Below are positions 5,082 to 18,146 of a DNA stretch of 18,146 bases, piece after piece. Below the pieces are notes generated by a model, which searched no databases, had not been told where the DNA came from, and saw nothing but the letters and a program-made list of their open reading frames with translations. This DNA is from an uncultured Eubacteriales bacterium (GTDB lineage: Bacteria; Bacillota; Clostridia; Oscillospirales; Oscillospiraceae). How positions within the stretch are numbered: position 1 is the stretch's first letter; each line of letters begins with the position of its first letter. The position numbers and the translations under genes were made by a program. Location of the stretch: contig UQQF01000040.1 of NCBI GenBank assembly GCA_900543085.1, positions 1-18,146 on the forward strand, given 5' to 3'.

Positions 5082-6469
5082 TCTGTCCACTCCTCCTCAG
5101 GCTTGCCGGCATAGCGCTTTTTAAATATCTTCCGGCGGAAAAGGAAGACGTTGTACGCTATGAACAGCACCAGGTACACGCCGAACATAATGAAGGTGTT
5201 GGTCAGGCTGCTGGCCGCGAAGCCCAGCGTCAGCAGCAGCGGAGCCAGGAACGCGATGGACGGGATGTTCTGCAGCACTATGTTGCTGCTGGCCGGGGTG
5301 ACAAAGTCTGGGTCGATCTCGCGCAGCAGCACCATGCCGGTGCTGAGCGTGCCGGTCAGCGTGCCGAAGTTGGTGAGGAAGCTCTCCACCTCGTAGCCCT
5401 TGTAGGCGTGCTTGGTGGCCTTGTGCACGTAGAACACCGTGATAAGCGTGCCCACGGCGCAGGTGACCACCAGCAGCCAGATGTTGGCAAGCACGTCCTC
5501 GATGTCTATGGCCATGATGCCGGCGGCTATCATCGCGTCGAACATCGTGCCGCTTATGCGATCCATGAGGTGGTTGTTGGTGTAGTAGCGGCGGATGACG
5601 TTTTTCTTTTTGAGGGCGGACATGACGGTCTTTATGAGGAAGGCCGCCACCAGCGCCCAGAGGAAGTTGAGACCCCAGGCCAGGTCTCCGACGGCCTGTA
5701 TCGGCACCGCCGCCAGCAGCAGCATGATGCCGTAAGCGCCCGCGTAGGCCAGAGCGACCAGGCAGAGCTGGACGGTCAGCTTGTCGATGCTCTCGCTGTT
5801 GGGTATCTCGTCGGGGTCTTCGATTATCACGCGGTCTTTCTCCGCGGCCAGCGCGCGGCGGGGCTTCACCAGACCCTTGCGCGTGGCTATGTTCAGGTAT
5901 ATCACGCCGAATACGCTGCCGACGATGAAGCCTATCGCAGCGACGGCCAGGCCGAAGTTGCTGCCGCCGGCGAAGCCGTAGTTCGCCTCAAAGTTGCTGC
6001 CCCAGCTCAGCGCGCTGCCGGTGCTCTGGCCGAAGCCCATGGGCAAAATGAGTCCCGCGGCGTAGAACGATCCGTTGAGGAAAAAGAAGGCTATCGAGAT
6101 GACCAGGCCGACAAGCGCCTGGATGAGATAGCCGCCGGCCATGATGGCGCCGGACTCGACCACCTTGACGGTGGAGACCTTCTTCTCCTCCTTCGCGGTC
6201 TTGAGCGCCATCGCGGCAAAGCCCAGGCCGAGGCAGTGGTAGGTGATGATCTCCATGGTGGCGTTGTCCACCAGCGGCGTGAGCGCCGGTATCTGCTTGA
6301 GTATGAGCACCAGAAATCCGCCTATTATAGCGGCGGGTATGTAGAGCTTTTTCAGGAACGGCACCTTTGTGCGCAGGACATTGCCGACCAATATGGCGAT
6401 AAACAATATTCCCAATTGACCCAGAAATGTCCAGACGTAGGCGTCGGAGAATACTACGGTTTCAGGCAT
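5078..6469 (-). CDS. gltS: Sodium/glutamate symporter family protein (GltS-like)
   Basis: A 463-residue polytopic membrane protein with roughly ten or more hydrophobic segments. It matches the ESS (glutamate:Na+ symporter, GltS) family in length and layout. Two pseudo-symmetric halves each carry a glycine-rich re-entrant-like stretch: 'GFGQSTGSALSWG' (~145-157) and 'FGTLTGTLSTGM' (in the second half, before LLREIDPDF), separated by a charged loop (~200-230, AAEKDRVIIEDPDEIP). The ATG at 6469 has AGGAGG about ten bases upstream. The next gene overlaps its stop by four bases, so acyltransferase translation is probably coupled to it. Known members import glutamate with sodium, but distant ones may carry other organic anions, so substrate is inferred from the family only. 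Confidence 0.82.
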   Translation of the reverse strand: MPETVVFSDAYVWTFLGQLGILFIAILVGNVLRTKVPFLKKLYIPAAIIGGFLVLILKQIPALTPLVDNATMEIITYHCLGLGFAAMALKTAKEEKKVSTVKVVESGAIMAGGYLIQALVGLVISIAFFFLNGSFYAAGLILPMGFGQSTGSALSWGSNFEANYGFAGGSNFGLAVAAIGFIVGSVFGVIYLNIATRKGLVKPRRALAAEKDRVIIEDPDEIPNSESIDKLTVQLCLVALAYAGAYGIMLLLAAVPIQAVGDLAWGLNFLWALVAAFLIKTVMSALKKKNVIRRYYTNNHLMDRISGTMFDAMIAAGIMAIDIEDVLANIWLLVVTCAVGTLITVFYVHKATKHAYKGYEVESFLTNFGTLTGTLSTGMVLLREIDPDFVTPASSNIVLQNIPSIAFLAPLLLTLGFAASSLTNTFIMFGVYLVLFIAYNVFLFRRKIFKKRYAGKPEEEWTE

Positions 6470-6484
6470 AAACCCACTCCTCCT

Positions 6485-6507
6485 CGCGCGGCCGGAAAAC
6501 CCGCGCG
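6485..6507 (-). promoter_or_regulatory. GC hairpin next to the gltS ribosome site
   Basis: CGCGCGG (6485-6491) and CCGCGCG (6501-6507) are perfect inverted repeats with a 9-base loop. In the minus-strand transcript the hairpin ends directly before AGGAGGAG, the ribosome site of the symporter gene. It could modulate ribosome access or mRNA stability; there is no direct evidence for either. Confidence 0.45.
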
Positions 6508-6527
6508 TACGTTATTTCCACCGACAT

Positions 6528-6556
6528 AGTATAACACAGTTCTCAAATCAAGTTAA
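6528..6556 (-). promoter_or_regulatory. Candidate promoter of the gltS-acyltransferase operon
   Basis: Minus strand: -35 TTAACT (6551-6556), 17-base spacer, -10 TATACT (6528-6533) preceded by TGT (extended -10). It is placed about 60 bases before the symporter ATG, and the GC hairpin falls within the leader. The -35 is only 4 of 6. Confidence 0.55.
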
Positions 6557-6700
6557 ACTCATTGCTAAAAATACCCGTAAATTTTTGAAGCCCGGGCGGC
6601 AGAGAAAATTGTAGAATTTGCTCACTTACTGTCATTTGTGTAAATTCAACACGCGCTACTAATTTGTTCTTCCCCTCTGGTTTTGTGCATGATCCTGTGG

Positions 6701-6706
6701 TAAAAT
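6701..6706 (+). promoter_or_regulatory. Weak candidate -10 for the ZIP transporter gene
   Basis: TAAAAT lies 19 bases before the ZIP gene ATG. No good -35 hexamer is seen at the right distance. The rest of the divergent intergenic stretch (about 6557-6700) is AT-rich, and I see no operator repeat or zinc-box palindrome that I can name. Confidence 0.25.
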
Positions 6707-6724
6707 CGGCTCAGAGGTGATAAT

Positions 6725-7507
6725 ATGACGCTCAATGCACTTATCGGCATACTGATCCCGCTCGCGGGCACTACGCTCGGCTCGGCCTGCGTCTTCCTGC
6801 TGCGCGGCGAGCTGCGTCCCCGGCTGCAAAAGCTGCTGCTCGGCTTCGCGTCCGGAGTCATGATAGCGGCCAGCGTGTGGTCTCTGCTGATGCCGTCCAT
6901 CAGCATGGCCGAGACCCAGGGCGTGACGCCGTGGGTGCCGGCGGCGATAGGCTTCCTGCTGGGCATCGGCTTTCTGCTGCTGCTGGACACGCTCGTGCCC
7001 CATCAGCATCTCGACTGCGACAAGCCCGAGGGCTGCCCGGCAAAGCTCGGCAAGAACACGATGCTCGTGCTGGCCGTCACGCTGCACAACCTGCCCGAGG
7101 GCATGGCCGTCGGCGTGGTGTTCGCCGGCGCTTCTCAGGGCGATCTGCCGCTCTCGCTGGCCGGCGCGTTCGCGCTTAGCATAGGCATAGCGCTGCAAAA
7201 CCTGCCCGAGGGAGCGGTGATTTCCATGCCCCTGGCAGGGAGCGGCGCCTCGCGCGTGAGAGCCTTCCTGACGGGCTTCGCCTCCGGCGTGGTCGAGCCG
7301 ATAGGCGCGCTGCTGACCATTCTGCTCACGGGGCTTGTCACCCCCGCCCTGCCCTACATACTCGCCTTTGCCGCCGGAGCCATGATCTACGTCGTGGTCG
7401 AGGAGCTCATCCCCGAAGCGCAGAGCGGCGAGCACTCGAACATCGGCACCATAGGCGCCGCTGCGGGCTTTGTGCTCATGATGATACTCGACGTTGCGCT
7501 CGGCTGA
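6725..7507 (+). CDS. ZIP family metal (zinc) transporter
   Basis: A 260-residue inner-membrane protein with about eight hydrophobic segments. ZIP proteins move divalent metals, usually zinc and often Fe or Mn, into the cytoplasm. The metal-site signatures are HNLPEG at residues 121-126 (TM4) and QNLPEG at 158-163 (TM5), with the conserved acidic segment VVEELIPEA near 224-232. Length matches bacterial ZupT/ZIP proteins. The loop between TM3 and TM4 (~92-108: PHQH...CDKPEGCP) has His and Cys residues that could sense or bind metal. The ATG at 6725 has GAGGTG five bases upstream. It diverges from gltS and lies about 160 bases upstream of the surface operon, which has its own promoter, so it appears monocistronic. 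Confidence 0.9.
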   Translation: MTLNALIGILIPLAGTTLGSACVFLLRGELRPRLQKLLLGFASGVMIAASVWSLLMPSISMAETQGVTPWVPAAIGFLLGIGFLLLLDTLVPHQHLDCDKPEGCPAKLGKNTMLVLAVTLHNLPEGMAVGVVFAGASQGDLPLSLAGAFALSIGIALQNLPEGAVISMPLAGSGASRVRAFLTGFASGVVEPIGALLTILLTGLVTPALPYILAFAAGAMIYVVVEELIPEAQSGEHSNIGTIGAAAGFVLMMILDVALG

Positions 7508-7602
7508 GTCCGCGCCTTCTCCCCGGCTTGGACATATGAGATACGTCCGGCGAGCGTTTCCTCCCGCCGCGTGGTTATGCTGACGAAAAATGTCGAATTT
7601 GC

Positions 7603-7631
7603 TTGAAATAGGCACGCGCATGTTTTATTAT
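7603..7631 (+). promoter_or_regulatory. Promoter of the surface-modification operon
   Basis: -35 TTGAAA (7603-7608), 17-base spacer, -10 TATTAT (7626-7631); each hexamer matches the consensus in 5 of 6 positions. Predicted start is near 7638, about 28 bases before the first GTG. It lies in a locally AT-rich pocket of an otherwise GC-rich stretch. Confidence 0.65.
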
Positions 7632-7665
7632 AAATGAGTAAATTCCGGCATGTGGGGGAATTGCG

Positions 7666-8952
7666 GTGGTGAGGAAATTAGAGATAGCGCTCCTGGGCGT
7701 TGCGTTCGCCGTGGTGGCCGCGTGTTCGGCGGCCGGCGAAGCATCGCTCCAGGGGTTTTTTACGCGCCTGACGCTCAGCCTGACGGTGGGCGACTCGGTC
7801 ACTGAGGTCTACGCTCAGCCCGGCGAGACGGCGGATCTCTCAGCGGTCACGGCCGGCGAGGGGCTGCGGGTGGCCTATTGGCTGGACTCTGACGGCGACA
7901 CGGCCGACCTGTCGCAGCCGGTGGAGGCCGACGCCGAATACACGGCGGTGCTCGCGCCCGAGCTTAACGGCCAGCTGGAGCCGTGGCTGGAGCTGGACGA
8001 GCACGGCCTCGCCCACCCCGGCGAACACGTGACCGGGGAGGAAATAGCCGCCGCCGTGGACTCCATGTTCGGCGGCGCTGTCCGCACGGACGTGATAGCG
8101 CGCCTCGACACCGTGAGCGAGGTGGAGCTGGCTCTTGTGCTGGACGGATTGTTCCCGCCCGAAGCGCTCTCCGGCCTGACGGAGAACGACCCGCTCAGCA
8201 GGATAGAGGCAGCCGGCATCATCTATCCGCTGTATATGGATACACTATATGGCGACGCCTGGGGCTATGATGCAGTGTACGCCGTTATCGCCCCGGATCT
8301 CGACCCGCTGAGCGACGGCGCAGGAGCTATGACGGCTTGCCTTGACGCCTCCGGCGCTGTATACTACGGTGAGGGGCTGGTCAACCTGGACGGGTACCTC
8401 TACCGCGTGGACGCCTCCGGGCTGTTCTGCATGGACGAGGAGGTTGACGGCCTCTACTACGGCGCCGACGGGCGCTACACCTCCGGGAACGAGGAGCTGG
8501 ACGCCTACGTGGCGGAGACGCTCGCGCCCATCTGCGCTGAGTGCGAGACCCGCGAGGAGATGCTCCGCGCGGCCTATCTCTACGTGCGCGACAACTTCAC
8601 CTACCTCCGCCGCAACTACTACGCCGTCGGCGACGACGGCTGGCAGATAGACGAGGCGCTGACCATGTTCAGCACCGGGCGCGGCAACTGTTACTGCTAC
8701 GCCGCTGCGTTCTGGTCGCTGGCCCGCGGCCTGGGCTATGACGCCACAGCCGTGGCAGGCACTGTCGGCTGGGAGCGCTCGCCCCACGGCTGGGTGATAA
8801 TGTACGACGGGTACGGAACCCGGATAGTCTACGACGTGGAGCTGGAGATGGCATACCACTACAACCGCGGGCGCTATGACGTCGACCTGTACGCCATGGA
8901 GCCGGAGGACACCACAAGCTGGAATTACATTTACGGAGAACAGTTTAGATGA
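7666..8952 (+). CDS. Transglutaminase-like surface protein with wall-repeat module (paralogue 1)
   Basis: A 428-residue exported protein. The N-terminus is a short basic stretch plus hydrophobic segment ending VVAAC (Cys20), which could be a lipobox or an uncleaved anchor. Residues ~55-100 resemble an InlB-type repeat ('YWLDSDGDTADLSQPVEAD'). Residues ~110-191 hold two weakly SLH-like helices (VTGEEIAAAVDSMF; PLSRIEAAGIIYPL). One choline-binding-like wall repeat is at ~241-272 (GYLYRVDASGLF...YYGADGRYT). The C-terminal domain (~275-428) is transglutaminase-like, with a possible triad of Cys342 in GRGNCYCYA (Cys344 is an alternative), His374 in PHGWV and Asp390 in VYDVE. Such domains act as cysteine proteases, amidases or cross-linkers; the substrate is unknown. 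GTG at 7666 or 7669 follows GGGGGA. First gene of the operon; its stop overlaps the next start (ATGA). Confidence 0.75.
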   Translation: MVRKLEIALLGVAFAVVAACSAAGEASLQGFFTRLTLSLTVGDSVTEVYAQPGETADLSAVTAGEGLRVAYWLDSDGDTADLSQPVEADAEYTAVLAPELNGQLEPWLELDEHGLAHPGEHVTGEEIAAAVDSMFGGAVRTDVIARLDTVSEVELALVLDGLFPPEALSGLTENDPLSRIEAAGIIYPLYMDTLYGDAWGYDAVYAVIAPDLDPLSDGAGAMTACLDASGAVYYGEGLVNLDGYLYRVDASGLFCMDEEVDGLYYGADGRYTSGNEELDAYVAETLAPICAECETREEMLRAAYLYVRDNFTYLRRNYYAVGDDGWQIDEALTMFSTGRGNCYCYAAAFWSLARGLGYDATAVAGTVGWERSPHGWVIMYDGYGTRIVYDVELEMAYHYNRGRYDVDLYAMEPEDTTSWNYIYGEQFR

Positions 8953-10361
8953 GCACTGACAGCGCGATATTTCTGTTTTTCTTCCTGCCTCTGCTGCTGA
9001 TACTGGAGGCGGTCATAAGGCCGGTCAAGGCCAAGAACGTATTTCTCTGCATCGCCGGGCTGATTTTCTACGCCTTCGGCGAGCTTTGGGCGCTGGCGCT
9101 GCTGATAGCCTCGGCGCTTGTGAACTGGGCGCTGGGACTGTTGGCCATGCGCGGCAGGAAATACGCGGTCGTGCTTGCCGCGGTGCTGAACCTGGCGCTG
9201 CTGGGCGTGTGCAAGTACCTCGGCTTCTTCGGCGAGGGGCTCTCGCTGCTCGGCCTGGAGGTCTCCCTGCCGGATATAATCGCCCCGGCCGGCGTGAGTT
9301 TCTTCACCTTCAAGGGCATAAGCTACGTAGCGGACGCATACAAGCGCCCCGAGACCGCCTCGCGCAGCTTCTTCCGGGTGCTGTTCTACATCTCCTTCTT
9401 CCCCGAGGTCATGAGCGGCCCGCTCTCCCGCTTTGCAAGCTTTGACGCCCAGCTCGCCGCGCGCGAGCGCTCGGCGGAGCGCACGGCCAGCGGACTGCGG
9501 CGCTTCATCCTCGGCCTGGCCAAAAAGCTGCTGCTCTCCGGCGGCTGCGCCGTGGTCGCCGACGCCGCCTTCGGCGCGGGCGCGGCGCTGGACGCGCGCA
9601 TGGCCTGGCTGGGAGCCGTCGCCTACTCCCTGCAGCTCTACTTTGACTTCTCCGGCTACTCCGACATGGCCGTCGGCCTCGGCTCGACGTTGGGCTTCAC
9701 CTGCCCGGAGAACTTCAACCACCCCTTTGCCGCCACGAGCATAACGGACTTCTGGCGGCGCTGGCACATCTCGCTCTCGCTGTGGTTCAGGGACTACCTG
9801 TACATACCGCTGGGCGGCTCGCGGCGCGGCAGGTGGCGCACCGCGGCGAACAAGGCGGTCGTATTCGTGCTGTGCGGGCTCTGGCACGGAGCCAACATGA
9901 CCTTCGTGCTCTGGGGCGCGTGGCACGCGCTGCTCTCCGCGCTTGAGAGCCTGAAGGTGCTGGACGTGGAGCGCTGGCGCAGGACAGCCGCCGGGCGCGT
10001 GCTCTCGCGCGTGTATACGCTCCTGGCCGTGTGCCTGGGCTTTGTCATGTTCCGCGCATCGAGCGTGAGCGAGGGCTTCGCCGTGCTGGGCGCGATGTTC
10101 ACCGGCTGGGATTTTAGCCTCGCCGGGGATCTGCTCCTGGCCAGGACGGTGGACGCATACACCGTGCTCGTGCTGGCGCTCTCGGCGCTGCTCTCGCTGC
10201 CGGTGCTCGATGCGCTCAAGTCGCGCCTCGCGCGCTCAGGCGGACGGATAGGCGCCGGAGCCGAGGCCGCGAGCTACGCGCTCTGCGCAGTCCTGCTTGT
10301 GGTCTGCGCCTCGGCGCTCGCCAGCGGCGGTTTCGCCCCGTTTATCTACTTCCAGTTCTAG
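8949..10361 (+). CDS. MBOAT family membrane O-acyltransferase (AlgI-like)
   Basis: A 470-residue multi-spanning protein of the MBOAT family, closest in pattern to AlgI/PatA/DltB proteins. These move an acyl group, commonly acetyl, across the membrane for transfer to a polysaccharide or wall polymer. Signatures: 'APAGVSFFTFKGISY' (~112-126), 'YFDFSGYSDMAVGLG' (~231-245), 'NFNHPF' (255-260), 'ITDFWRRWHISLSLWFRDY' (~265-283) and the presumed catalytic His313 in 'GLWHGANMTF'. Length is standard for AlgI. The start overlaps the preceding stop as ATGA, indicating coupling. The protein lies between two transglutaminase-like paralogues and two genes before an AlgX/AlgJ-like SGNH protein, the usual partner type. 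The acceptor polymer cannot be read from sequence. Confidence 0.9.
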   Translation: MSTDSAIFLFFFLPLLLILEAVIRPVKAKNVFLCIAGLIFYAFGELWALALLIASALVNWALGLLAMRGRKYAVVLAAVLNLALLGVCKYLGFFGEGLSLLGLEVSLPDIIAPAGVSFFTFKGISYVADAYKRPETASRSFFRVLFYISFFPEVMSGPLSRFASFDAQLAARERSAERTASGLRRFILGLAKKLLLSGGCAVVADAAFGAGAALDARMAWLGAVAYSLQLYFDFSGYSDMAVGLGSTLGFTCPENFNHPFAATSITDFWRRWHISLSLWFRDYLYIPLGGSRRGRWRTAANKAVVFVLCGLWHGANMTFVLWGAWHALLSALESLKVLDVERWRRTAAGRVLSRVYTLLAVCLGFVMFRASSVSEGFAVLGAMFTGWDFSLAGDLLLARTVDAYTVLVLALSALLSLPVLDALKSRLARSGGRIGAGAEAASYALCAVLLVVCASALASGGFAPFIYFQF

Positions 10362-10373
10362 GAGGGCTTGGAC

Positions 10374-11753
10374 GTGCAAAAGAAAGGAACTGTACTGCGC
10401 GGCATTGTGCTGGTCCTGGTGCTCTGCTGCCTGGCTCTCACCATAGGCGCGCGGCTGGGACTGTTCTCCGGCGCCGTGCTGACCATCACCGCCAACGGGG
10501 AGGTCACGGAGCTCGACGTCCAGCGCGGACAGGTGGCCGACGTGTCGCAGTTTGAGGCCGCTCCCGCAGGCTACCGCTTTGTCTGCTGGCTGGACGCGAA
10601 CGGCAACGAGGCCGACCTGAGCCAGCCGGTCGAGGGCGACGCGAGCTACACCGCGCTCATCGCCCCCGCGCTCACGGCGAGCATGACGCCGTGGCTCGAA
10701 TACGACGAGCTGGGACGCCTGCTGCCGAACCAGCCGGTCTCCGGCGCGGAGCTTGCCGCTGGCGTGTCCGCGCTCTTTGAAGGCGCGGTGGAGGCGGATA
10801 GCCTCGTCTCGCTCGGCGAGGTCACGGAGACCGACCTCGCTGCGGCGCTTGAAGGGCTGTTCTCCCCCGGCACGCTCGCCGCGCTCGACGGCACCGGGCC
10901 GCTCACGCGCGCGGCCGCGGCGGAGCTTATCCTCTCGCTCGCGGGCATACAGCCCGCAGCGCCGGAGCGCGCGCCCGCGCCAGACCTGGCTGCCGACGCC
11001 CCCGGCGCCGCAGCCCTCGCCGCCTGCGCCGACCCGGCCGGAGCCGTGTCCTACGAGCCGGGGAACGTGTATATAGACGGCTATCTCTACCTCGTGGACG
11101 AAAACGGCCTGTTCGTCACAGACGCCGAGGTGGACGGCCTCTACTACGACGAGGAGGGTCGCTGCGCGAGCTACGACTTCGAGCCGGGCTTCGTCAACCT
11201 GGGCGGCTATCTCTACTATGTGGACGAGGACGGACGCTTTGCTCAGGACACTGAGATAGGCGGCATCTACTTCGGCTCCGACGGCCGCTACACCAGCGGC
11301 AGCGAGGAGCTGGACGCGCTGGTGGCGGAGGTCCTCGCTCCCATCTGCGAGGAGAACGAGACGCGCGAGGAGATGCTCCGCGCGGCCTTCAACTACGTGC
11401 GCGACAGCTTTGAGTACCTGCGCCGCAACTACTACGCCGTCGGAGAGACCGGCTGGGAGGTCGAGGAGGCCACGACCATGTTCTCCACCGGGCGCGGCAA
11501 CTGCTACAACTACGCGGCGGCCTTCTGGGCGCTCGCCCGCGGGCTGGGCTACGACGCCACCGCCGTCTCCGGGACCATGGGCTGGGACTACGAGCCGCAC
11601 GGCTGGGTCACCATCTATGACGAGAACGGCGCGCTCTTGACCTACGACACCGAGACCGAAATGGCCTACCGGCGCGACGGCGACTACAGCAAGGACATGT
11701 TCGCCATGTCCTACTGGTACGCCGCGGGCTGGAACTACTACTACGGAGCGTAA
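10374..11753 (+). CDS. Transglutaminase-like surface protein with two wall repeats (paralogue 2)
   Basis: A 459-residue paralogue of the first operon gene. One N-terminal transmembrane anchor (~9-28) is followed by the InlB-like stretch ('CWLDANGNEADLSQPVEGD', ~71-89), a region with SLH-like helices ('GPLTRAAAAELILSLAGI', ~175-192), an Ala/Pro-rich linker (~193-215), and two choline-binding-like repeats (~235-265 and ~275-306). The C-terminal transglutaminase-like domain has a possible triad Cys377 (GRGNCYNYA), His409 (EPHGWV) and Asp425 (TYDTE). I take the GTG at 10374: it lies seven bases after GGAGGG, which itself overlaps the MBOAT stop codon, whereas the TTG at 10368 lies only one base from it. 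Compared with paralogue 1 it has one more wall repeat and lacks the possible lipobox. The enzymatic activity and substrate are unknown. Confidence 0.75.
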   Translation: MQKKGTVLRGIVLVLVLCCLALTIGARLGLFSGAVLTITANGEVTELDVQRGQVADVSQFEAAPAGYRFVCWLDANGNEADLSQPVEGDASYTALIAPALTASMTPWLEYDELGRLLPNQPVSGAELAAGVSALFEGAVEADSLVSLGEVTETDLAAALEGLFSPGTLAALDGTGPLTRAAAAELILSLAGIQPAAPERAPAPDLAADAPGAAALAACADPAGAVSYEPGNVYIDGYLYLVDENGLFVTDAEVDGLYYDEEGRCASYDFEPGFVNLGGYLYYVDEDGRFAQDTEIGGIYFGSDGRYTSGSEELDALVAEVLAPICEENETREEMLRAAFNYVRDSFEYLRRNYYAVGETGWEVEEATTMFSTGRGNCYNYAAAFWALARGLGYDATAVSGTMGWDYEPHGWVTIYDENGALLTYDTETEMAYRRDGDYSKDMFAMSYWYAAGWNYYYGA

Positions 11754-11758
11754 TACCG

Positions 11759-13087
11759 ATGAAGCGGTTCTATCTTATATTCATAGCCTTGATACTCGCG
11801 CTCTGCATGATACCCGGCGTCGGCCTGCTCATAAACGGCCCCGCCGAGGCCGGGGCAAACGAAGTCGGCGCGGCCATGCCCGGCCTGACGGAGCGCGACG
11901 GCTCGCTGAACACCGACTACCTCGGCGAGCTGGCCGACTACGTCAACGACGGCTTTTATCTCAGGCAGGAGCTTATCACCGGCTGGGCAAAGCTGCTCGC
12001 GCCCCTGGGGCACAGCGCCGAGGACGACGTCGTACTCGGCCGCGACGGCTGGCTCTACTACGCGCCCGAGATCGAGGGCTGGGCGGGCGTCTATACGCTC
12101 GGCGAGCGCGGGGTATACGCCGCCGCGAACAACCTCGCCCTCATGCAGGAGTACGTCGAGAGCCTGGGCGCGGACTTTGTGTTCACGATAGCCCCGGACA
12201 AGAGCACGCTCTACCCCGAACACCTCCCCGGCTATCCGCAGTCCGGCGAGCCCTCGAGCGCAGAGCGTCTGGCGGCGGCGATGGAGGAGTTGGGCGTTAG
12301 TTATGTAAACCTGTTTGAGCTGTTCAGCGCTCAGGACGAGGTGTACTACTTCGAGCACGACTCGCACTGGAACAGCCGCGGCGCGGCGCTGGCCGCCGAC
12401 GCGCTGAACGCCGCGCTCGGCGTCGGGAGCAGCTATGCCGACGGATATGAGTACGAGACCGTGCAGCACACCGGCGACCTCTTTGACATGCTCTACCCCG
12501 CCGGCACGGACACGGAGACGAACGACGCGCCCACCGCGCTGAACTTTGACCAGGGCGCCAACATCCGCCCGGACAGCATAACCATAGACACGACTTCGGA
12601 CGGGGTCGGGAGATTGCTGATGTTCCGCGACAGCTTCGGCGAGCTGCTCTACCCATTCATGGCGGAGGGCTTTGCCTCCGCCAGGTTCTCGCGCCAGGCC
12701 GCCTATGATCTTACAACGGCGGAGGAACTTTCCTCCACGGCCGTCGTCATAGAGCTTGTAGAGAGAAACCTCTCCTGGTTATATGAGCAGCCGGCCGTCT
12801 TCCCCGCCCCGGAGCGCGAATTGAACCTCGCGTCGGAGATAGAAGGCGAAGCTACGCTGGAGGCCGACGCGGCTCTCGACGGAGCCCACAGCGTCACGGG
12901 CGTGATTTCCGGAAACGTAGATGTTGATTCTGACGTCTACATAGCGTATAATGGCGCTGTCTATGAGTGCCTGCTGACGGCGGACGGGTACACCGCCTGC
13001 CTGCCCGGCGAGGGCGGCGGCGAGTACACGCTGTTCTGGTACTCGGACGGAAATCTGACGCACTGCGACATGAGCGTCAATATATAA
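11759..13087 (+). CDS. AlgX/AlgJ-like SGNH-type acyltransferase partner
   Basis: A 442-residue protein with one N-terminal hydrophobic anchor (~4-25), so probably extracytoplasmic. The AlgX/AlgJ (DHHW-like) SGNH fold is indicated by 'VVLGRDGWLYY' (~91-101), 'TIAPDKSTLYPEHLPG' (~143-158), the DxH motif in 'EHDSHWNSRG' (Asp201, His203) and 'MFRDSFGE' (~288-295) with presumed nucleophile Ser292. In alginate, PatA/B and related systems this protein takes the acyl group exported by the MBOAT protein and places it on the polymer. A ~90-residue C-terminal region (~350-442) is extra to the core and beta-rich. The start follows GGAG ten bases upstream, five bases after the previous stop. The partner MBOAT gene is two genes upstream rather than adjacent. 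Confidence 0.82.
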   Translation: MKRFYLIFIALILALCMIPGVGLLINGPAEAGANEVGAAMPGLTERDGSLNTDYLGELADYVNDGFYLRQELITGWAKLLAPLGHSAEDDVVLGRDGWLYYAPEIEGWAGVYTLGERGVYAAANNLALMQEYVESLGADFVFTIAPDKSTLYPEHLPGYPQSGEPSSAERLAAAMEELGVSYVNLFELFSAQDEVYYFEHDSHWNSRGAALAADALNAALGVGSSYADGYEYETVQHTGDLFDMLYPAGTDTETNDAPTALNFDQGANIRPDSITIDTTSDGVGRLLMFRDSFGELLYPFMAEGFASARFSRQAAYDLTTAEELSSTAVVIELVERNLSWLYEQPAVFPAPERELNLASEIEGEATLEADAALDGAHSVTGVISGNVDVDSDVYIAYNGAVYECLLTADGYTACLPGEGGGEYTLFWYSDGNLTHCDMSVNI

Positions 13088-13105
13088 TCAGAAAGGGACC
13101 ACAAA

Positions 13106-13498
13106 ATGAAGAAGATACTGAGCCTTATGCTTGCCGCGATGCTCGTTCTCGGCCTTGCCGCCTGCGGCGACGCCGGCAGCAGCGAGACCCCCGCGCCCAC
13201 CGCCGCGCCCAGTGAGGCCGCGCCGGAGGACACCACCTCCCCCACCGAAGCGGTCGAGGGCACCGCTGCCCCCGAAGATGGCGAGAACGGCGGCGACACC
13301 AGCCTGCTGGAGACTGCCAAGACCTTTGAGGGCGCCCCCGTGGAGGAGCTTATCGCGGCCATCGGCGAGCCCGAAAGCAGCGACTACGCCCCCAGCTGCC
13401 TGGGCGCAGGCGAGGACGGCAACCTCTATTACGACGGCTTCACTGTCTACACCTACCGCGACACCGACGGCCAGGAGACCGTGAACTACGTAGAATAA
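13106..13498 (+). CDS. Small lipoprotein, unknown function
   Basis: A 130-residue protein. The signal sequence MKKILSLMLAAMLVLGLAAC ends in a lipobox (LAAC, Cys20), so it should be lipidated and held at the outer face of the membrane. Residues ~22-65 form a disordered-looking linker rich in Ala, Pro, Thr, Ser and Glu. A compact C-terminal part (~66-130) contains 'IAAIGEPESSDYAPSCLG' and 'NLYYDGFTVYTYRDTDG', beta-rich with one Cys. I do not recognise the family; it resembles small lipid-anchored binding modules of the BLIP/SmpA-like type only in general character. AAGGGA lies seven bases before the ATG, 18 bases after the SGNH gene stop. It sits between the acyltransfer genes and the dipeptidase gene and is presumably co-transcribed. 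Confidence 0.8.
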   Translation: MKKILSLMLAAMLVLGLAACGDAGSSETPAPTAAPSEAAPEDTTSPTEAVEGTAAPEDGENGGDTSLLETAKTFEGAPVEELIAAIGEPESSDYAPSCLGAGEDGNLYYDGFTVYTYRDTDGQETVNYVE

Positions 13499-13516
13499 AC
13501 GAAAGCGAGGCGCACA

Positions 13517-15445
13517 ATGAAAAAGAGGAGCAAGATAGCGCTGATATGCGTGATTGCAGCCGTACCGCTGCTGCTGATAGCGGCCTTTTTGCTCTTTGCC
13601 TTACCGTACATAAACGCGGCTTCCTCCATGCCGGAGGGAGCCTCGTTGTCTTTGCTCTACCTCTCGGACGGTGAATACCGCCTGGAGTGGCCTACAGGCG
13701 ACAACGCCACGCACTACGCCGTCAGCCTCGGCGACGAGGCCGTCACCGGAGAGCCTGTCAGCGAGACCCGGACTCTGCTCAGCGGCGTAGCGGAGCGCGA
13801 CTGCACGATAACCGTAACCCCCTATGGCAGCTGGTACCTCTTTGGCAGGGAGCATCTGCGTGAGGGCGAGCCGCTTGCCACCTCCGTATCCCTGGTCAGC
13901 CCGGACGCGCCGGAGGCCGAGTGGACGGTCGACGTGGAGCGGCAGACGCTCACCGCCGTGGTCGAGCCGCGCGTGGGGCTGAGCTATGAGCTGCGCCTCG
14001 TCACGGATGACCCCGAAGCCGAGGCCGGAGAGAACGAGCGCTTGCTCGCAAGCTCCGACGACGGGACGCTCACCGTCCGCTTCGGCGAGGACGCCGACCT
14101 CGCGATGCCCGAGTACGGCGAAGAATACGCCTTCGTCGTGCGCGCCGTGCTCAGCGGTGAGGGCTACGCCCTCACCGGACGACCCGGAGAGGCGTTCACG
14201 CTTGAGCGCGAAGACCTGCTGTCCGACACCAGCACGCTCAGCAGCGAGGCCATGGAGGACACGAACCAGTACAGCCTGAGCTGGACCGAGGCCAAGGGCG
14301 ACTACTACGAGATACAGTCCAGGGACGGCGACGAGTGGACTACCCTGGCCACCGTGGATTGCGGCGAGGAGCTGGTTTACGAGACCGGCACGCTGGCCAG
14401 CTGTCGGGAATACACCTTCCGCGTCGTGGGCTACGACGAGGGCGTGGAGGAGAGCGTGTCCTCCAGCGACGAGCTGAGCTTCACCACCGAGCGCTCGCCC
14501 ATATACTGCACCATCTGGCCGCTGACCGAGCTGGCGGTCTACGCGGACTCGAGCATGTCCGAGCTGATGGAGGGCTACACCGCCCCGGCCGCGACGGCCT
14601 ACTGCGTTATGGACGAGGAAAACGGCATGTTCCAGGTGCGCCTGGACGAGGACGTCTACGGCTGGATAGAGAGCAACTACTGCATGATAAACCTCCCCGA
14701 ATACCTCGGAGAGCTGCTGGCCTACGACATCACGAACAGCTACGCCTCCAAGTACATGGTGCACGGCTATGAGATACCCGAGGTCACGGACACCGTCATA
14801 CCCGGCTACGAGCACGTACAGCTGGCTGACGGGCTGTACCTGGCGCCCTACCTCTACCCCTGCTGTGAAAAGCTCTACAGCGCCGCCACGGCCGCGCTGG
14901 AGGACGGCTACCGCCTGAAGATCTACGACTCGTTCCGCCCGCGCATGGCCACGACCTACATATACAACACCGCGGAGGCCATAATAGACACCCCCCTGCC
15001 GGAGACGGATTTCTACGGCGAAGTCCCCGAGGATCTGCCGGACGAGGAGGGTCTGACCTACCGCCGCCTGGTCACTGAGGGCAACTACTCCCTGCCGAAC
15101 TTCCTGGCGCAGAACGGCTCGTATCACAACATGGGCATAGCGCTGGATCTCACGCTGGAGCGCGTGGACACCGGCGAGGAGCTGGAGATGCAGACCGACA
15201 TGCACGACCTCTCCGTCTACTCCATTATCTCCCGCAACAACGAGGAGGCGCTGCTGCTGGACAGCTATATGAAGGCCGCCGGCTTCGGCGGGCTAACCAG
15301 CGAGTGGTGGCACTTCCAGGACAACGACACCCGCAACGCGCTGAGCCTGAACATATACATGCAGTACGGCGTCAGCTGCGCCGGCTGGGTCTGCAACGAC
15401 GACGGCTGGCGCTACCGCAACGCGGACGGCACCTACGCCGAATGA
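13517..15445 (+). CDS. Anchored VanX-like D-Ala-D-Ala dipeptidase with SH3-like and wall-repeat modules
   Basis: A 642-residue protein with one N-terminal transmembrane anchor (~7-32). Two or three fibronectin-III-like segments follow (~40-325), then an SH3-like segment (~333-400, ending YGWIESNYCMINLPEYLG). The catalytic part is a peptidase M15 domain (~400-612) with VanX signatures: 'LKIYDSFRPRMA' (Arg474), 'GSYHNMGIALDLTL' (zinc ligands His537 and Asp544) and 'SEWWHF' (Glu596, His599). The H-x6-D and E-x2-H spacings match VanX-type dipeptidases. The tail has a choline-binding-like repeat 'GWVCNDDGWRYRNADGTY' (~623-640). The anchor places the enzyme outside, so it probably trims wall peptides or recycles D-Ala-D-Ala rather than giving cytoplasmic VanX resistance. 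GAGG lies about seven bases before the ATG. Last gene of the operon, followed at once by a terminator. Confidence 0.85.
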   Translation: MKKRSKIALICVIAAVPLLLIAAFLLFALPYINAASSMPEGASLSLLYLSDGEYRLEWPTGDNATHYAVSLGDEAVTGEPVSETRTLLSGVAERDCTITVTPYGSWYLFGREHLREGEPLATSVSLVSPDAPEAEWTVDVERQTLTAVVEPRVGLSYELRLVTDDPEAEAGENERLLASSDDGTLTVRFGEDADLAMPEYGEEYAFVVRAVLSGEGYALTGRPGEAFTLEREDLLSDTSTLSSEAMEDTNQYSLSWTEAKGDYYEIQSRDGDEWTTLATVDCGEELVYETGTLASCREYTFRVVGYDEGVEESVSSSDELSFTTERSPIYCTIWPLTELAVYADSSMSELMEGYTAPAATAYCVMDEENGMFQVRLDEDVYGWIESNYCMINLPEYLGELLAYDITNSYASKYMVHGYEIPEVTDTVIPGYEHVQLADGLYLAPYLYPCCEKLYSAATAALEDGYRLKIYDSFRPRMATTYIYNTAEAIIDTPLPETDFYGEVPEDLPDEEGLTYRRLVTEGNYSLPNFLAQNGSYHNMGIALDLTLERVDTGEELEMQTDMHDLSVYSIISRNNEEALLLDSYMKAAGFGGLTSEWWHFQDNDTRNALSLNIYMQYGVSCAGWVCNDDGWRYRNADGTYAE

Positions 15446-15480
15446 AAAATGCCCTGACCCGCAGTGGGTCAGGGCATTTT
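15446..15480 (+). terminator. Terminator of the surface-modification operon
   Basis: A perfect 15-bp stem: AAAATGCCCTGACCC (15446-15460) and GGGTCAGGGCATTTT (15466-15480), loop GCAGT. It starts one base after the dipeptidase stop codon. The T run is within the stem, so it could also stop transcription from the other direction. Confidence 0.88.
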
Positions 15481-15526
15481 GCGCCTCCCGGCGGGAAGCT
15501 CACAGGCGCGTCTTGAGATTTTTTTG

Positions 15527-15555
15527 TTGAGCGCGCGATCGTTTTGCTGTACAAT
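15527..15555 (+). promoter_or_regulatory. Promoter of the EFR1 family gene
   Basis: -35 TTGAGC (15527-15532), 17-base spacer, -10 TACAAT (15550-15555), about 20 bases before the ATG at 15576. The -35 is 4 of 6, the -10 is 5 of 6. Confidence 0.55.
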
Positions 15556-15575
15556 ACCGGTATCGGAGGTGCACT

Positions 15576-16358
15576 ATGGTTATCTATTATACGGGAACAG
15601 GAAACAGCGAATACTGCGCCAAACAGCTCGCCGCGCTCACGGGAGACAGATGTATCAGCGCCTTTGAGTACATACGCGGCGGCATAGCCGGGGAGTTCGT
15701 CTCTGATACGCGGTGGGTGTTCGTATCGCCGACGCACGGCTGGCGCCTGCCGCGCGTGTTTGAGGGTTTTATACGCTCGACGCGCTTTGTCGGCTGCCGT
15801 GACGCATACTTTGTCATGACCTGCGGCACGGACACGGGGAACGCGGCGGCGTACAACCGCGCGCTGTGCTCGGAGAAAAGCCTTGCATACCGCGGCACGG
15901 CAAGCATCGTCATGCCCGAAAACTATGTAGCCATGTTCCCCGTGCCGGACGAGGCCGAGTCCAGGGAGATAGTAGACCGCGCAAAGGAGAGCATCCGCCT
16001 CGCGGCGGACTGCATCGCCGGCGGCCTGGACCTTGCCGGCCACCCGGCGTCCGCGCTCGACCGCATGAAATCCGGAGTAGTACACGCGGCGTTTTGCCGG
16101 TTCATGATTGGCGACCGGCGCTTCACGGTGAGCGGGGCGTGCATAGGCTGCGGCAAGTGCGAACGCCTGTGTCCGGTGCGGAACATCACGATGGAGCGCG
16201 GCAGACCCACGTGGAACGGGAACTGCACCCACTGCATGGCGTGCATCTGCTCCTGCCCGGCCTCGGCCATCGAGTACGAAAAGATAAGCGTCGGAAAACC
16301 GAGATACCACTGTCCTGACGCCGGCGATATTTCGGCAGGATCACCCGCGCAGCAGTGA
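15576..16358 (+). CDS. EFR1 family flavodoxin/ferredoxin protein
   Basis: A 260-residue cytoplasmic electron-transfer protein of the EFR1 type common in gut Firmicutes. The N-terminal half is flavodoxin-like, with the phosphate-loop 'YYTGTGNSEYCA' (~4-15) and 'FVSPTHGWRLPRV' (~49-61). The C-terminal part has two [4Fe-4S] ferredoxin motifs: CIGCGKCERLCP (Cys189, 192, 195, 199) and CTHCMACICSCP (Cys217, 220, 223, 227). It should pass electrons between a flavin and two iron-sulfur clusters; physiological partners are not known for this group. The ATG at 15576 has GGAGGTG five bases upstream. It is separated from the surface operon by a terminator and has its own promoter, so it is a single-gene unit. 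The last ~15 residues are low-complexity. Confidence 0.9.
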   Translation: MVIYYTGTGNSEYCAKQLAALTGDRCISAFEYIRGGIAGEFVSDTRWVFVSPTHGWRLPRVFEGFIRSTRFVGCRDAYFVMTCGTDTGNAAAYNRALCSEKSLAYRGTASIVMPENYVAMFPVPDEAESREIVDRAKESIRLAADCIAGGLDLAGHPASALDRMKSGVVHAAFCRFMIGDRRFTVSGACIGCGKCERLCPVRNITMERGRPTWNGNCTHCMACICSCPASAIEYEKISVGKPRYHCPDAGDISAGSPAQQ

Positions 16359-16362
16359 AGCC

Positions 16363-16392
16363 CGAGCGTATAGTGTGCAACACTTACGCTCG
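16363..16392. other. Long hairpin downstream of the EFR1 gene
   Basis: CGAGCGTA (16363-16370) pairs with TACGCTCG (16385-16392), and AGTGT with ACACT inside, leaving a one-base bulge and a 3-base loop (about 13 bp in all). It starts five bases after the EFR1 stop but has no T tract on either side, so it is either an unusual terminator or a palindromic element. It includes GTGCAACACTT, also found at the left end of the IS30 element. Confidence 0.5.
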
Positions 16393-16478
16393 TTCCGATT
16401 CTTGCTCCGCTGGTTTCGCATCCGGTTTGCGGGGCGATAGAGTTTGGGTTTGGCATCAAGCGCAGTAAACCGGTAAAA

Positions 16479-16511
16479 AAGAAGCAGAAGGCTCAAAGCC
16501 TTCTGCTTCTT
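16479..16511. terminator. Strong terminator-like hairpin left of the IS element
   Basis: AAGAAGCAGAAGGCT (16479-16493) and AGCCTTCTGCTTCTT (16497-16511) form a perfect 15-bp stem with a CAA loop. The minus-strand reading ends in TTTTTTA, a good U tract; the plus-strand side reads TTCTTGGCTTTT, which is weaker. It may serve the EFR1 transcript or stop transcription arriving from the right. Between it and the EFR1 hairpin (16393-16478) I see no gene. Confidence 0.7.
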
Positions 16512-16536
16512 GGCTTTTGGGGTGAATTATACTATC

Positions 16537-16546
16537 AAGTGCAACA
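16537..16546 (+). repeat. IS30 left inverted repeat core
   Basis: AAGTGCAACA, the exact reverse complement of 17584-17593. Outside the ten bases the two ends no longer match base for base. Confidence 0.75.
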
Positions 16547-16563
16547 CTTTAAGGGAATAAAAG

Positions 16564-16636
16564 AGTTCATACAGAGCCCTACGTGGTAGAATGGAGTAAC
16601 CACACAACAAAACACCAGGAGGGGACTGTATGAACT
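16564..16636 (+). promoter_or_regulatory. Fold-back leader that can hide the transposase start
   Basis: AGTTCATACAG (16564-16574) is the exact reverse complement of CTGTATGAACT (16626-16636), which contains the ATG at 16630. The ribosome site AGGAGGGG (16617-16624) sits in the loop beside it. A candidate -10 TAGAAT (16587-16592) would start the native mRNA near 16599, after the left arm, so only read-through transcripts from outside could fold. This matches the logic described for other insertion sequences such as IS10. Confidence 0.6.
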
Positions 16637-17595
16637 ACCACCATCTTACCATAGAAGAGCGCTCTTGTATACGAAAATATTACGTCGACGGCCTGAGCTA
16701 CCGTGAGATCGCCCGGCTGATCGGACGGAACGTCAGCACGGTGTCACGGGAGATACGGCGCAACTGTACTCACATGTACGACATCCCCACCTACTACCCG
16801 CACACAGCCCAGAAGAAATATCTGCTGAGGCGCTCTTATTGCCATCGCGGCATGTTCCGTTCGCAGGAAGTGATTGAGTACATAGAGGAAAAGCTGAAGG
16901 CTACATGGTCACCGGAACAGATTGCCTGTACACCTTGCGAGCTGAAGATGCCAAGCTGGAGGACTATTTACCGTTGGATCTACGAGAAATACCTGGTGAA
17001 CGGAAACCTGAAAGTGCTCCGGCGCAAGGGGAAGAGCCATGGACGCAAGGAAACACGGGGAAAATACAGCAAGAGCAAGTCGATTCGTAAACGGGACAAA
17101 TCCGTGTACAGCCGGAAAGAAGCCGGCCACTGGGAAGCGGATACGGTCGTGAGTGGCCAGGGCAAGAGCAGAGCCTGCTTTGCCACTCTGGCAGAACGCA
17201 AGACACGCTTTTACATTGCCGTGAAGATGCCTGACCGGCGGGCAGAGACCATGGAGAACGCAATTGTCGCTGCGTTGTCTGCCTTTCCGCCCCAGCTGGT
17301 CAAGACGATCACCTGCGACCGCGGAGCCGAATTTGCCAACTGGCGCAAAATTGAGGAACGGCTGCACTGCGAGGTCTATTTTGCCGACCCCTATTGTGCA
17401 TGGCAGAAAGGCACAAACGAGAATCTCAACGGCCTGCTGAGGGAGTTCTATCCGAAAGGCAGAAACCTATCCCGTGTCGCTCCCGCCACGCTAAAACGAA
17501 ACCTGGCGTTAATCAACGCCAGGCCTCGCAAAGTTTTGAACTTCCATTCTCCCCAGGAACTATGGGACTTTGAGCTCAATTCCTGTTGCACTTAG
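16630..17595 (+). CDS. IS30 family transposase
   Basis: A full-length 321-residue transposase. The N-terminal helix-turn-helix (HTH_38-like) spans about residues 5-45 (LTIEERSCIRKYY...YREIARLIGR...STVSREIRR) and binds the terminal repeats. The middle is basic (~125-165, rich in Lys/Arg). The DDE catalytic core has Asp171 in 'HWEADTV', Asp230 in 'TCDRGAEF' and Glu264 in 'GTNENLNGLLREF', with the 33-residue D-to-E spacing usual for IS30. The start ATG follows AGGAGGGG at a spacing of five bases. The last codons run into the right inverted repeat, as is common for this family. No frameshift or missing catalytic residue is seen, so the element may be active. Confidence 0.95.
   Translation: MNYHHLTIEERSCIRKYYVDGLSYREIARLIGRNVSTVSREIRRNCTHMYDIPTYYPHTAQKKYLLRRSYCHRGMFRSQEVIEYIEEKLKATWSPEQIACTPCELKMPSWRTIYRWIYEKYLVNGNLKVLRRKGKSHGRKETRGKYSKSKSIRKRDKSVYSRKEAGHWEADTVVSGQGKSRACFATLAERKTRFYIAVKMPDRRAETMENAIVAALSAFPPQLVKTITCDRGAEFANWRKIEERLHCEVYFADPYCAWQKGTNENLNGLLREFYPKGRNLSRVAPATLKRNLALINARPRKVLNFHSPQELWDFELNSCCT
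17584..17593 (-). repeat. IS30 right inverted repeat core
   Basis: TGTTGCACTT, overlapping the last transposase codons and the first base of the TAG stop; reverse complement of the left core. Confidence 0.75.
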
Positions 17596-17656
17596 TTTGA
17601 CAAATCACTTTTGGTCGTCCTTACACCGCCACAACTCGCCGCGCCGGATATTATCA

Positions 17657-17815
17657 AAATTGAAGCCCAACGAAGTGGGTTCAATTTGGAAAAGGAGGAG
17701 CAGCGGAGCGAAAAAAAGCGCGAAAAAAACAAATCCGAAGCCAAAGTGCTTCGGATTTGGAAGGAGGCGCAAGGGAGCGAACGCAGTTTTCGGCAATAGC
17801 CTATGGCTGTTGCCG
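17657..17815. repeat. Tandem hairpin-plus-linker modules
   Basis: Unit A has a hairpin (17657-17669 with 17676-17687, one bulge) followed by GGAAAAGGAGGAGCAGCGGA and GCGAA. Unit B has a hairpin (17731-17741 with 17748-17758) followed by GGAAGGAGGCGCAAGGGAGC and GAA. Hairpin sequences differ but the linkers align well. A third hairpin (17791-17801 with 17805-17815, one G-U pair) has a weaker linker match. No gene is seen between the IS and the tRNA (17596-17847). Confidence 0.55.
17723..17758 (-). terminator. Terminator of tRNA-Leu(CAA)
   Basis: AAATCCGAAGC (17731-17741) and GCTTCGGATTT (17748-17758) form a perfect 11-bp stem with a 6-base loop. On the minus strand a run of seven Ts (17729-17723) follows after one base. 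It lies about 90 bases past the CCA end of the tRNA, and a second hairpin at 17657-17687 lies further on. Confidence 0.85.
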
Positions 17816-17847
17816 GAAACGAAGTTGAGCGGACTTTGCGCCGACGC

Positions 17848-17934
17848 TGGTGCCGGTGGCGGGAATCGAACCCGCACGCCATTGCTGGCAATGGATTTTG
17901 AGTCCACCTCGTCTACCAGTTCCAACACACCGGC
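17848..17934 (-). tRNA. tRNA-Leu (anticodon CAA)
   Basis: The minus strand gives a complete class II tRNA of 87 bases. Acceptor stem GCCGGTG pairs with CACCGGC, followed by discriminator A and encoded CCA (17848-17850). The anticodon loop CTCAAAA gives CAA, decoding UUG. A long variable arm (GCCA-GCAA-TGGC) and the T-arm GCGGGTTCGATTCCCGC are present. The leucine identity follows from the anticodon and the class II variable arm. Confidence 0.95.
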
Positions 17935-17945
17935 ATAACGTATGG

Positions 17946-17974
17946 ATTATACATCACGTCAGCAAAATTTTCAA
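17946..17974 (-). promoter_or_regulatory. Promoter of tRNA-Leu(CAA)
   Basis: Minus strand: -35 TTGAAA (17969-17974), 17-base spacer, perfect -10 TATAAT (17946-17951). The predicted start is only a few bases before the mature tRNA 5' end at 17934. Confidence 0.8.
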
Positions 17975-18010
17975 GAGCGTATTGGCTAAATAAAAACTTG
18001 AAGATTCTTC

Positions 18011-18042
18011 TTGACATTTCAATTCAAGAGTGCTATTATAAT
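18011..18042 (+). promoter_or_regulatory. Promoter of tRNA-Leu(CAG)
   Basis: A perfect -35 TTGACA (18011-18016) is followed after 17 bases by TATTAT (18034-18039) with an upstream TGC, an extended -10. A perfect TATAAT (18037-18042) overlaps it at a 20-base spacing. The predicted start is about 10-13 bases before the tRNA. Confidence 0.82.
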
Positions 18043-18058
18043 CGAGCATTCCAAATAC

Positions 18059-18146
18059 GCGCGAGTGGTGGAATTGGCAGACTCGCTAGATTCAGGTTCT
18101 AGTGTGCACTACGCACGTGCGGGTTCAAGTCCCGCCTCGCGCACCA
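18059..18146 (+). tRNA. tRNA-Leu (anticodon CAG)
   Basis: A complete 88-base class II tRNA ending at the last base of the window. Acceptor stem GCGCGAG pairs with CTCGCGC, then discriminator A and encoded CCA (18144-18146). The anticodon stem CTAGA/TCTAG encloses TTCAGGT, giving CAG, which decodes CUG. The variable arm GTGC/GCAC and the T-arm GCGGGTTCAAGTCCCGC are present. A CUG reader fits the GC-rich codon use of the genes here, where CTG and CTC leucine codons dominate. Confidence 0.95.

Follow-up and report, generated by a model that had tools for sequence, protein, structure and literature searches.

The 18,146-nucleotide contig UQQF01000040.1 (assembly GCA_900543085.1) comes from an uncultured Eubacteriales bacterium, a gut bacterium, and is referred to here as the window. 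Its list of open reading frames (ORFs) contains six on the plus strand, from 7666 to 15445, in the order TG1, MBOAT, TG2, SGNH, LIPO, M15, where TG stands for a transglutaminase-like protein, LIPO for a small lipoprotein and M15 for a peptidase. We conclude that this operon probably encodes a machine for the acylation of an envelope polymer, in which the TG and LIPO proteins work after the donor step and M15 is an optional member. The MBOAT-SGNH relay is itself of a known kind; its partnership with a TG protein and a lipoprotein appears to be undescribed. In line with the original prediction that the combination is not a system that can be named, a search of the open-licence PMC library gave no description of it among the matches listed, and no title or abstract among those matches pairs TG-like proteins with MBOAT/SGNH or with dlt or teichoic systems. 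Two articles, PMC4006915 and PMC6224512, join all of the terms incidentally in the extracts available, through a reference to human loricrin and a separate table row.

The core of the operon is very likely an MBOAT-SGNH acyl relay that adds small acyl groups, probably acetyl, to a surface polymer. The MBOAT acyltransferase (8949..10361, plus strand, 470 aa; PF03062, E = 3.9e-29, 102.4 bits against a cut-off of 27) ends in FIYFQF, a match to the acyl-shuttle motif FxYxxF. Its catalytic His313 is kept in 87 of 87 alignment rows and the shuttle residue Tyr467 in 86 of 87, the remaining row being a gap; here and below, conservation rows are the relatives fetched in the analysis plus the window protein. 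The SGNH protein (11759..13087, plus strand, 442 aa; PF16822, E = 1.1e-20, 74.8 bits for ALGX against 26.5) is an AlgX/PatB1-like O-acyltransferase whose triad Asp201, His203 and Ser292 is kept in all 45 rows. Its best sequence match in PDB is PatB1 (5v8d, 7.5e-11), and AlgJ is also matched (4o8v, 1.7e-5). Both assignments, and that of the two TG-like paralogues described below, agree with what had been predicted from the window, with Pfam scores above cut-off and conserved catalytic residues.

Three known systems resemble this core. PatA/PatB and PatA1/PatB1 likewise pair an MBOAT protein that bears a C-terminal FxYxxF with an SGNH neighbour that has an Asp-His-Ser triad; the TG-like proteins, the dedicated lipoprotein and the M15 peptidase are extras of the present operon. 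According to extracts of PMC12148441, PatA auto-acetylates the Tyr of its FxYxxF tail and PatB then uses the acetylated peptide; a Tyr relay in the operon MBOAT is inferred by analogy with this pair. The alginate proteins AlgI, AlgJ, AlgX and AlgF also combine an MBOAT with an ALGX-family SGNH, and the extracts of PMC4148444, which name four proteins for alginate acetylation, do not list TG as one of them. The dlt system (DltA-D, DltX) is likewise a relay from an MBOAT to an extracellular SGNH protein, but there DltX is separate, whereas in the operon the shuttle motif is fused to the MBOAT. A dlt operon in the window was considered and rejected, since no DltA occurs among the 12 window proteins scanned and the MBOAT scores 175.7 bits against the DltB equivalog TIGR04091, whose cut-off is 375. 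DltD was not found in the relative genome G001 at E <= 1e-20.

No adenylating enzyme or DltA ligase was recognized among those 12 proteins, and with gaps of 18 bases or fewer the operon is too tightly packed to contain a carrier gene, although no search was aimed at a gene of DltC size. With neither a ligase found nor space for a carrier, acyl-CoA is the probable donor, an argument taken from the extracts of PMC12148441. Inside the cell, the MBOAT would then load an acyl group, acetyl from acetyl-CoA being the likeliest, onto Tyr467 of its own tail; the acylated tail would pass the group on to the anchored SGNH protein at Ser292, and that protein would esterify the polymer outside the membrane.

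The combination recurs in other genomes. The counts that follow rest on ORF-level phmmer and hidden Markov model (HMM) matches; L052 to L111, short copies of places already covered, are left out of them, and L114, the same as L018, is left out of the tree and conservation rows. Scanning genome contigs with the TG alignment A1 gave 51 loci, 31 with an MBOAT gene and 20 without, so the predicted association of an MBOAT-SGNH pair with TG-like proteins and M15 is a recurring neighbourhood. The six genes had been predicted to belong together: their core is widely kept, but the complete window order is found at only 5 of the 51 TG-centred loci (L003, L005, L006, L007, L008), while three more (L001, L002, L004) are compatible with it but contig-cut. 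By these matches the full set is the form of a small clade. Other loci have the order TG-MBOAT-SGNH-LIPO-TG-M15 (L010, L013, L044) or TG-MBOAT-SGNH-LIPO-M15 (L014, L024, L029, L032, L039). M15 is present at 14 of the 31 TG loci with MBOAT, several of the remaining loci being contig-cut. The closest MBOAT relative (80%) lies in L009, which has no TG between its MBOAT and SGNH genes.

An MBOAT scan of 394 genomes of the order found 69 places in 62 genomes at E <= 1e-95, and all 69 loci were inspected. The core HMMs used for this purpose were built from TG-centred loci and widened with L172-L177, with L126 as the TG and DltD reference; the same models and thresholds were applied throughout. At the close-clade loci (ranks 1-24, a boundary set after locus contents had been viewed, and a set partly enriched by the HMM construction), SGNH was present at 23 of 24, LIPO at 22, TG at 14 and M15 at 4. 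At the ordinary MBOAT loci (ranks 26-69), the same-strand counts were 39/44 for SGNH, 1/44 for LIPO, 1/44 for TG and 0/44 for M15. One ordinary locus, L149, has an additional TG on the opposite strand, and the rank 25 locus (L180) also has LIPO. The close-clade LIPO matches comprise 19 at E < 1e-15 and 3 weaker ones, and a narrower LIPO profile recovers 20 of the 24 at E < 1e-3 (18 at E < 1e-10). The FxYxxF tail is present in the ordinary MBOAT loci too and therefore marks the mechanism, not this operon specifically. On the MBOAT tree (86 rows, with contig-cut rows scored as lacking the gene), the fewest changes required are 7 for LIPO, 5 for TG and 9 for M15. The MBOAT match of L245 was made on unmasked letters, and its ORF length is a masking artefact. 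As a side observation, a short piece of TG immediately precedes MBOAT at L133:5477-5905 and may come from a gene that is decaying or frameshifted.

LIPO, to which the original prediction gave no particular weight, is the most constant accessory gene of the MBOAT loci. The full-length LIPO query gave mostly signal-peptide and linker matches in genomes and was replaced by a domain profile (A3), which found 30 places in 26 of the 394 genomes; each of the 24 with E <= 1e-10 has an MBOAT place no more than 9 kb away, and the stretches fetched around the 6 weaker ones all include an MBOAT. Across the class, LIPO profile A4 found 64 places in 58 of 391 genomes. For this survey 60 regions were fetched, representing 61 places; G001 and G046 were taken from the earlier set, and one place was left out. 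The top 40 regions contain an MBOAT in 33 cases, a DltA-like ligase in 27 and TG in 26, and the next 20 contain them in 11, 7 and 10 cases. The link between LIPO and MBOAT is weaker at this larger distance, yet persistent.

The TG gene may also lie apart from its MBOAT. Ten close-clade loci have no adjacent TG, and all nine of the corresponding genomes that were searched hold one TG-family gene elsewhere (A1, E <= 1e-10). By contrast, A1 found TG in 0 of 18 control genomes, which belong to the same order and showed neither an MBOAT place nor a listed LIPO in the scans above. This co-occurrence at genome level is support, not proof, since the two genome sets differ in ancestry. The view that these genes are chance neighbours was rejected on three grounds: the recurrence seen in TG-centred loci, the counts at close-clade versus ordinary loci, and the 0/18 TG control.

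The same accessory genes are found on true dlt operons, a link absent from the original prediction. L176 and L177 have the order LIPO-TG-DltA-DltB-DltD; their DltA proteins score 511 and 505 bits, enough for NF003417 (cut-off 476) but not for the stricter TIGR01734 (559.85). The DltB proteins of L176 and L126 score 452 and 430 bits, above the cut-off of 375, and DltD of L126 scores 299 bits, above 150. DltD occurs at 17 places in 16 of the 394 genomes; TG is present at 12 of the 17 and LIPO at 11, with 3 places contig-cut, and M15 at none. At nine of these places (L176, L177, L190, L192, L193, L195, L197, L198, L199) a LIPO-TG pair lies directly upstream of dltA. The stretch at L194 starts inside TG, L188 and L189 have neither gene, and L191, L196 and L200 are the contig-cut places; L176 and L200 both come from genome G150 and are perhaps the halves of a single dlt operon. 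In L125 and L126, dltABD is followed by LIPO, and a TG-MBOAT-SGNH-LIPO set directly adjoins it, placing two acylation systems side by side. A gene for a C39-like peptidase lies between the two systems of L126.

A more distant set (L172-L175 and many of the class matches) consists of a DltA-like ligase, an MBOAT, a putative SGNH-like protein and LIPO, often preceded by a TG gene. The ligase of L172 scores under the DltA cut-offs and over that of TIGR01733. At the DltD position L172 encodes a 355-aa protein that matches nothing in Pfam or NCBIfam; its SGNH label was given by eye, and relatives of it are included in the SGNH counts for the class-wide LIPO regions. These DltA-like ligase operons, L172-L175 and many of L210-L249, possibly carry out aminoacylation with another amino acid.

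Natural fusions join the accessory domains to the SGNH step. A single ORF, L112:8399-11005, contains ALGX, SLH and Transglut_core domains, making an SGNH-SLH-TG fusion. In L041, an SGNH domain is followed by a LIPO domain in one ORF, and in L252-L254 the SGNH-like protein of Dlt-like operons, so labelled by eye (L252 and L254 have no Pfam match), is fused to LIPO. The LIPO-TG pair accompanies two kinds of MBOAT system, the acyl-CoA type and true dlt. Because it accompanies acyl-CoA and ligase-carrier systems alike, and because TG and LIPO are each found fused to SGNH, we infer that the pair acts after the donor step. Our proposal places TG and LIPO at the acceptor end of envelope acylation, where they may serve as a relay or esterase with an adaptor.

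Two points weigh against this reading. The Fisher probabilities that separate close-clade from ordinary loci (1.5e-14 for LIPO, 2e-7 for TG) are uncorrected for ancestry, and in one lineage the gene neighbourhood, which includes an NlpC/P60 protein, favours a peptidase or cross-linking role for TG. The first of these bears on the idea that the neighbourhood reflects shared ancestry only, with parts that are functionally unlinked. In keeping with that idea, the named loci (L001-L051) all lie in records from clostridia or coriobacteria, and the remaining ones belong to the same order or class. Gene order varies, however, among TG-LIPO-MBOAT-SGNH, TG-MBOAT-SGNH-LIPO and LIPO-TG-dltABD; these changes, together with the fusions and the two kinds of MBOAT system, argue for repeated rearrangement with retention, and we regard shared ancestry as a highly improbable explanation.

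The two TG proteins of the window are paralogues. TG1 (7666..8952, plus strand, 428 aa; PF01841, E = 3.5e-10, 40.5 bits against a cut-off of 23) is an anchored protein with a GTG start preceded by GGGGGA. TG2 (10374..11753, plus strand; E = 2.1e-11, 44.5 bits) carries choline-binding-like repeats. Its ORF was called from TTG 10368; the GTG at 10374, behind AGGAGGG, is the more likely start and gives a protein of 459 aa, the length also of the nearest database copies. TG1 and TG2 are sister groups, and by sequence the pair is a local duplication, so the pairing once suggested as a feature of the system does not stand as one. The catalytic Cys, His and Asp are each present in 69 of 70 rows, and their columns are invariant in alignment A1. 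The predicted structure of TG2 (mean pLDDT 91) gave Foldseek matches to choline-binding modules, TgpA, TglA and LapG; a PDB profile search with TG gave no match at E <= 0.01. The name TglA, which comes from a PDB entry, led to no article containing it among the matches listed.

What TG does may be considered in two ways. On the first view, TG and M15 cut or cross-link stem peptides or surface proteins in the wall, and the operon does no more than time them together with acylation. This is close to the original prediction of joint acylation and peptide trimming or cross-linking, neither of which is shown by anything in the analysis; we consider it possible, though rather unlikely. M15 belongs to a genuine peptidase family and has its residues intact, and the TG core in the model comparison resembles TgpA, LapG and the pseudomurein endoisopeptidase PeiP. 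LIPO-TG pairs also occur at loci without an MBOAT (L038, L042, L045-L048), three of which (L038, L045, L048) share a downstream gene, an SLH-SH3-NlpC/P60 protein in L038. Left unexplained are the presence of LIPO-TG on dlt operons, where M15 is found at 0 of 17 places, and the SGNH-TG and SGNH-LIPO fusions. The dlt link draws the likely role of both proteins, TG and LIPO, away from the trimming of peptides and nearer to acyl transfer itself.

The second is that TG is an acyl relay or esterase: its Cys would take up the acyl group as a thioester, either from SGNH or from a polymer near the membrane, and would move it to a wall polymer or clear it, with LIPO docking TG and SGNH together. The occurrence of LIPO-TG on both acyl-CoA and Dlt-type MBOAT systems, the SGNH-TG fusion, the intact Cys-His-Asp and the wall-binding modules carried by TG proteins speak for this role. 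FmtA, the teichoic acid D-Ala esterase of S. aureus, belongs to a different protein family from TG. It offers a functional precedent, by analogy only, as an extra enzyme after the MBOAT-SGNH step: extracts of PMC12505958 describe lipoteichoic acid supplying D-Ala to wall teichoic acid with the help of FmtA, with the acyltransferase of the final step still missing. Against the relay or esterase role, TG occurs also where the locus has no MBOAT. Extracts of PMC12345273, on lipoprotein N-acetylation, give no link to TG. We hold this assignment tentatively and think it unlikely as it stands. The PF01841 superfamily is better known for peptidases or transamidases, and we know of no acyl-ester chemistry performed by a TG protein; both weigh against such a role. 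Within the acylation machine that we favour, TG1 and TG2, membrane-anchored and bearing wall-binding modules, would act downstream on the acyl group or the acylated polymer rather than in donor supply. Judged by gene company, their action could be re-transfer, removal or attachment.

LIPO (13106..13498, plus strand) has a lipobox Cys at position 20, a conserved domain at residues 66-130 and a conserved loop of the pattern SC-x-G-x-G-x-D-G. The full protein has no match in the Pfam copy scanned; a relative, P0205, bears the precomputed label PF27998, yet the Pfam scan of P0205 did not return that family. A BamE/BLIP-like fold is tentatively predicted. From the company its gene keeps, LIPO may be an adaptor lipoprotein dedicated to the SGNH step, with AlgF as a possible functional parallel: in extracts of PMC4148444, AlgF is needed for alginate acetylation yet has no predicted catalytic domain.

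The last gene encodes a peptidase of the M15 (VanX/VanY-like) family (13517..15445, plus strand, 642 aa; PF01427, E = 8.8e-12), with a membrane anchor recognized by eye. Arg474, His537, Asp544, Glu596 and His599, which we take to be the catalytic or zinc-site residues of M15, are kept in all 18 rows. Of the predicted VanX-like peptidase, the M15 domain is borne out (45.7 bits against 27) and the VanX identity is not, with 33.5 bits against the cut-off of 320 for equivalog NF033115. The protein thus shares the M15 domain and five conserved residues with VanX/DdpX and VanY, and differs from them in its 642-aa length with an N-terminal anchor and its score far under the VanX cut-off. The earlier description as multi-domain goes back to length and a reading by eye; Pfam and NCBIfam return the peptidase domain only. 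Nor is M15 a feature of the system as had been supposed, given its presence at 4 of 24 close-clade MBOAT loci; the counts describe an optional member, added in some lineages, where gene company would make it an accessory peptidase.

As to the acceptor, one candidate is the ligand of SLH domains, a pyruvylated secondary wall polysaccharide, as in the case of PatA1/PatB1; PatB1 and this acceptor are treated in extracts of the review PMC7759979. The PDB match of the SGNH protein to PatB1 and the SLH domain within the L112 fusion fit this candidate, as does an SLH protein in the window. That protein (752-3652, minus strand, 966 aa) has SLH (PF00395, 2.6e-17) and InlB B-repeat (PF18998, 9.5e-9) domains, and from it the organism probably displays SLH-anchored proteins. 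Of 16 genomes with TG/LIPO loci, 11 have a CsaB match above the cut-off, among them the seven tested genomes of the closest MBOAT clade (G001-G006, G012), but the model also exceeds it in 4 of 14 control genomes and is a weak marker. No CsaB match was found in G008, G009 and G011, and scores fall below the cut-off in G010 and G014, all five of which carry the module. A CsaB-type polysaccharide was therefore rejected as the general acceptor, since module genomes without a CsaB match exist, and as the acceptor here the SLH-bound polysaccharide is conceivable but somewhat doubtful. In genomes with TG/LIPO loci, the teichoic polymerase family PF04464 is present in 2 of 15, the sulfatase family PF00884, which includes LtaS, in 13 of 15, and LCP ligases (PF03816) in 15 of 15. 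These family counts lean towards an LCP-linked wall glycopolymer, without identifying the acceptor.

The operon is as tightly packed as predicted, all six ORFs being as described; TG1 and MBOAT overlap by 4 bases, and the later gaps are 6, 5, 18 and 18 bases. The ORFs are real rather than chance, because other genomes carry close relatives in the same order. The predicted single terminator holds: an intrinsic terminator (15446..15480, plus strand), missed by a pattern scan, has a 15-pair hairpin and a short T run and folds at -27.7 kcal/mol (z -6.0), as well as which none of 200 shuffles folds. The single promoter is less secure. The upstream promoter-like match TTGAAA-17-TATTAT (7603..7631, plus strand) comes from a consensus scan only (10/12), and the operon itself contains further matches at 8337, 12924 and 14480; a single promoter and single transcript are unproven for these reasons. 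Window positions 5000-18146 contain 12 such matches, several within genes, compared with a shuffle mean of 2.9. A ZIP transporter gene lies upstream of the operon and an EFR1 ferredoxin gene downstream. Further on, a transposase ORF with HTH_38 and rve domains (16630-17595, plus strand), presumably IS30-like, lies close to two divergent tRNA-Leu genes (17848-17934, minus strand; 18059-18146, plus strand).

In its most specific form, our idea is that clostridial acylation, of both acetyl and D-alanyl type, has a second stage: a wall-anchored, papain-fold Cys enzyme, TG, would take the acyl group from the MBOAT-Tyr-SGNH relay and re-esterify or clear it on a wall polymer, while a BamE/BLIP-like lipoprotein would dock TG to SGNH. 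We put this forward as a speculation that is quite unlikely to hold in every part. MBOAT-SGNH relays are usually described as two- or three-protein mechanisms. If TG and the lipoprotein are regular members of clostridial relays, including real dlt systems, they would be two concrete candidates for the passage of acyl groups from membrane-near carriers to the wall. Protein search matches to the TG and LIPO families bear almost no informative source names, and if true, the finding would provide hypotheses of function for both.

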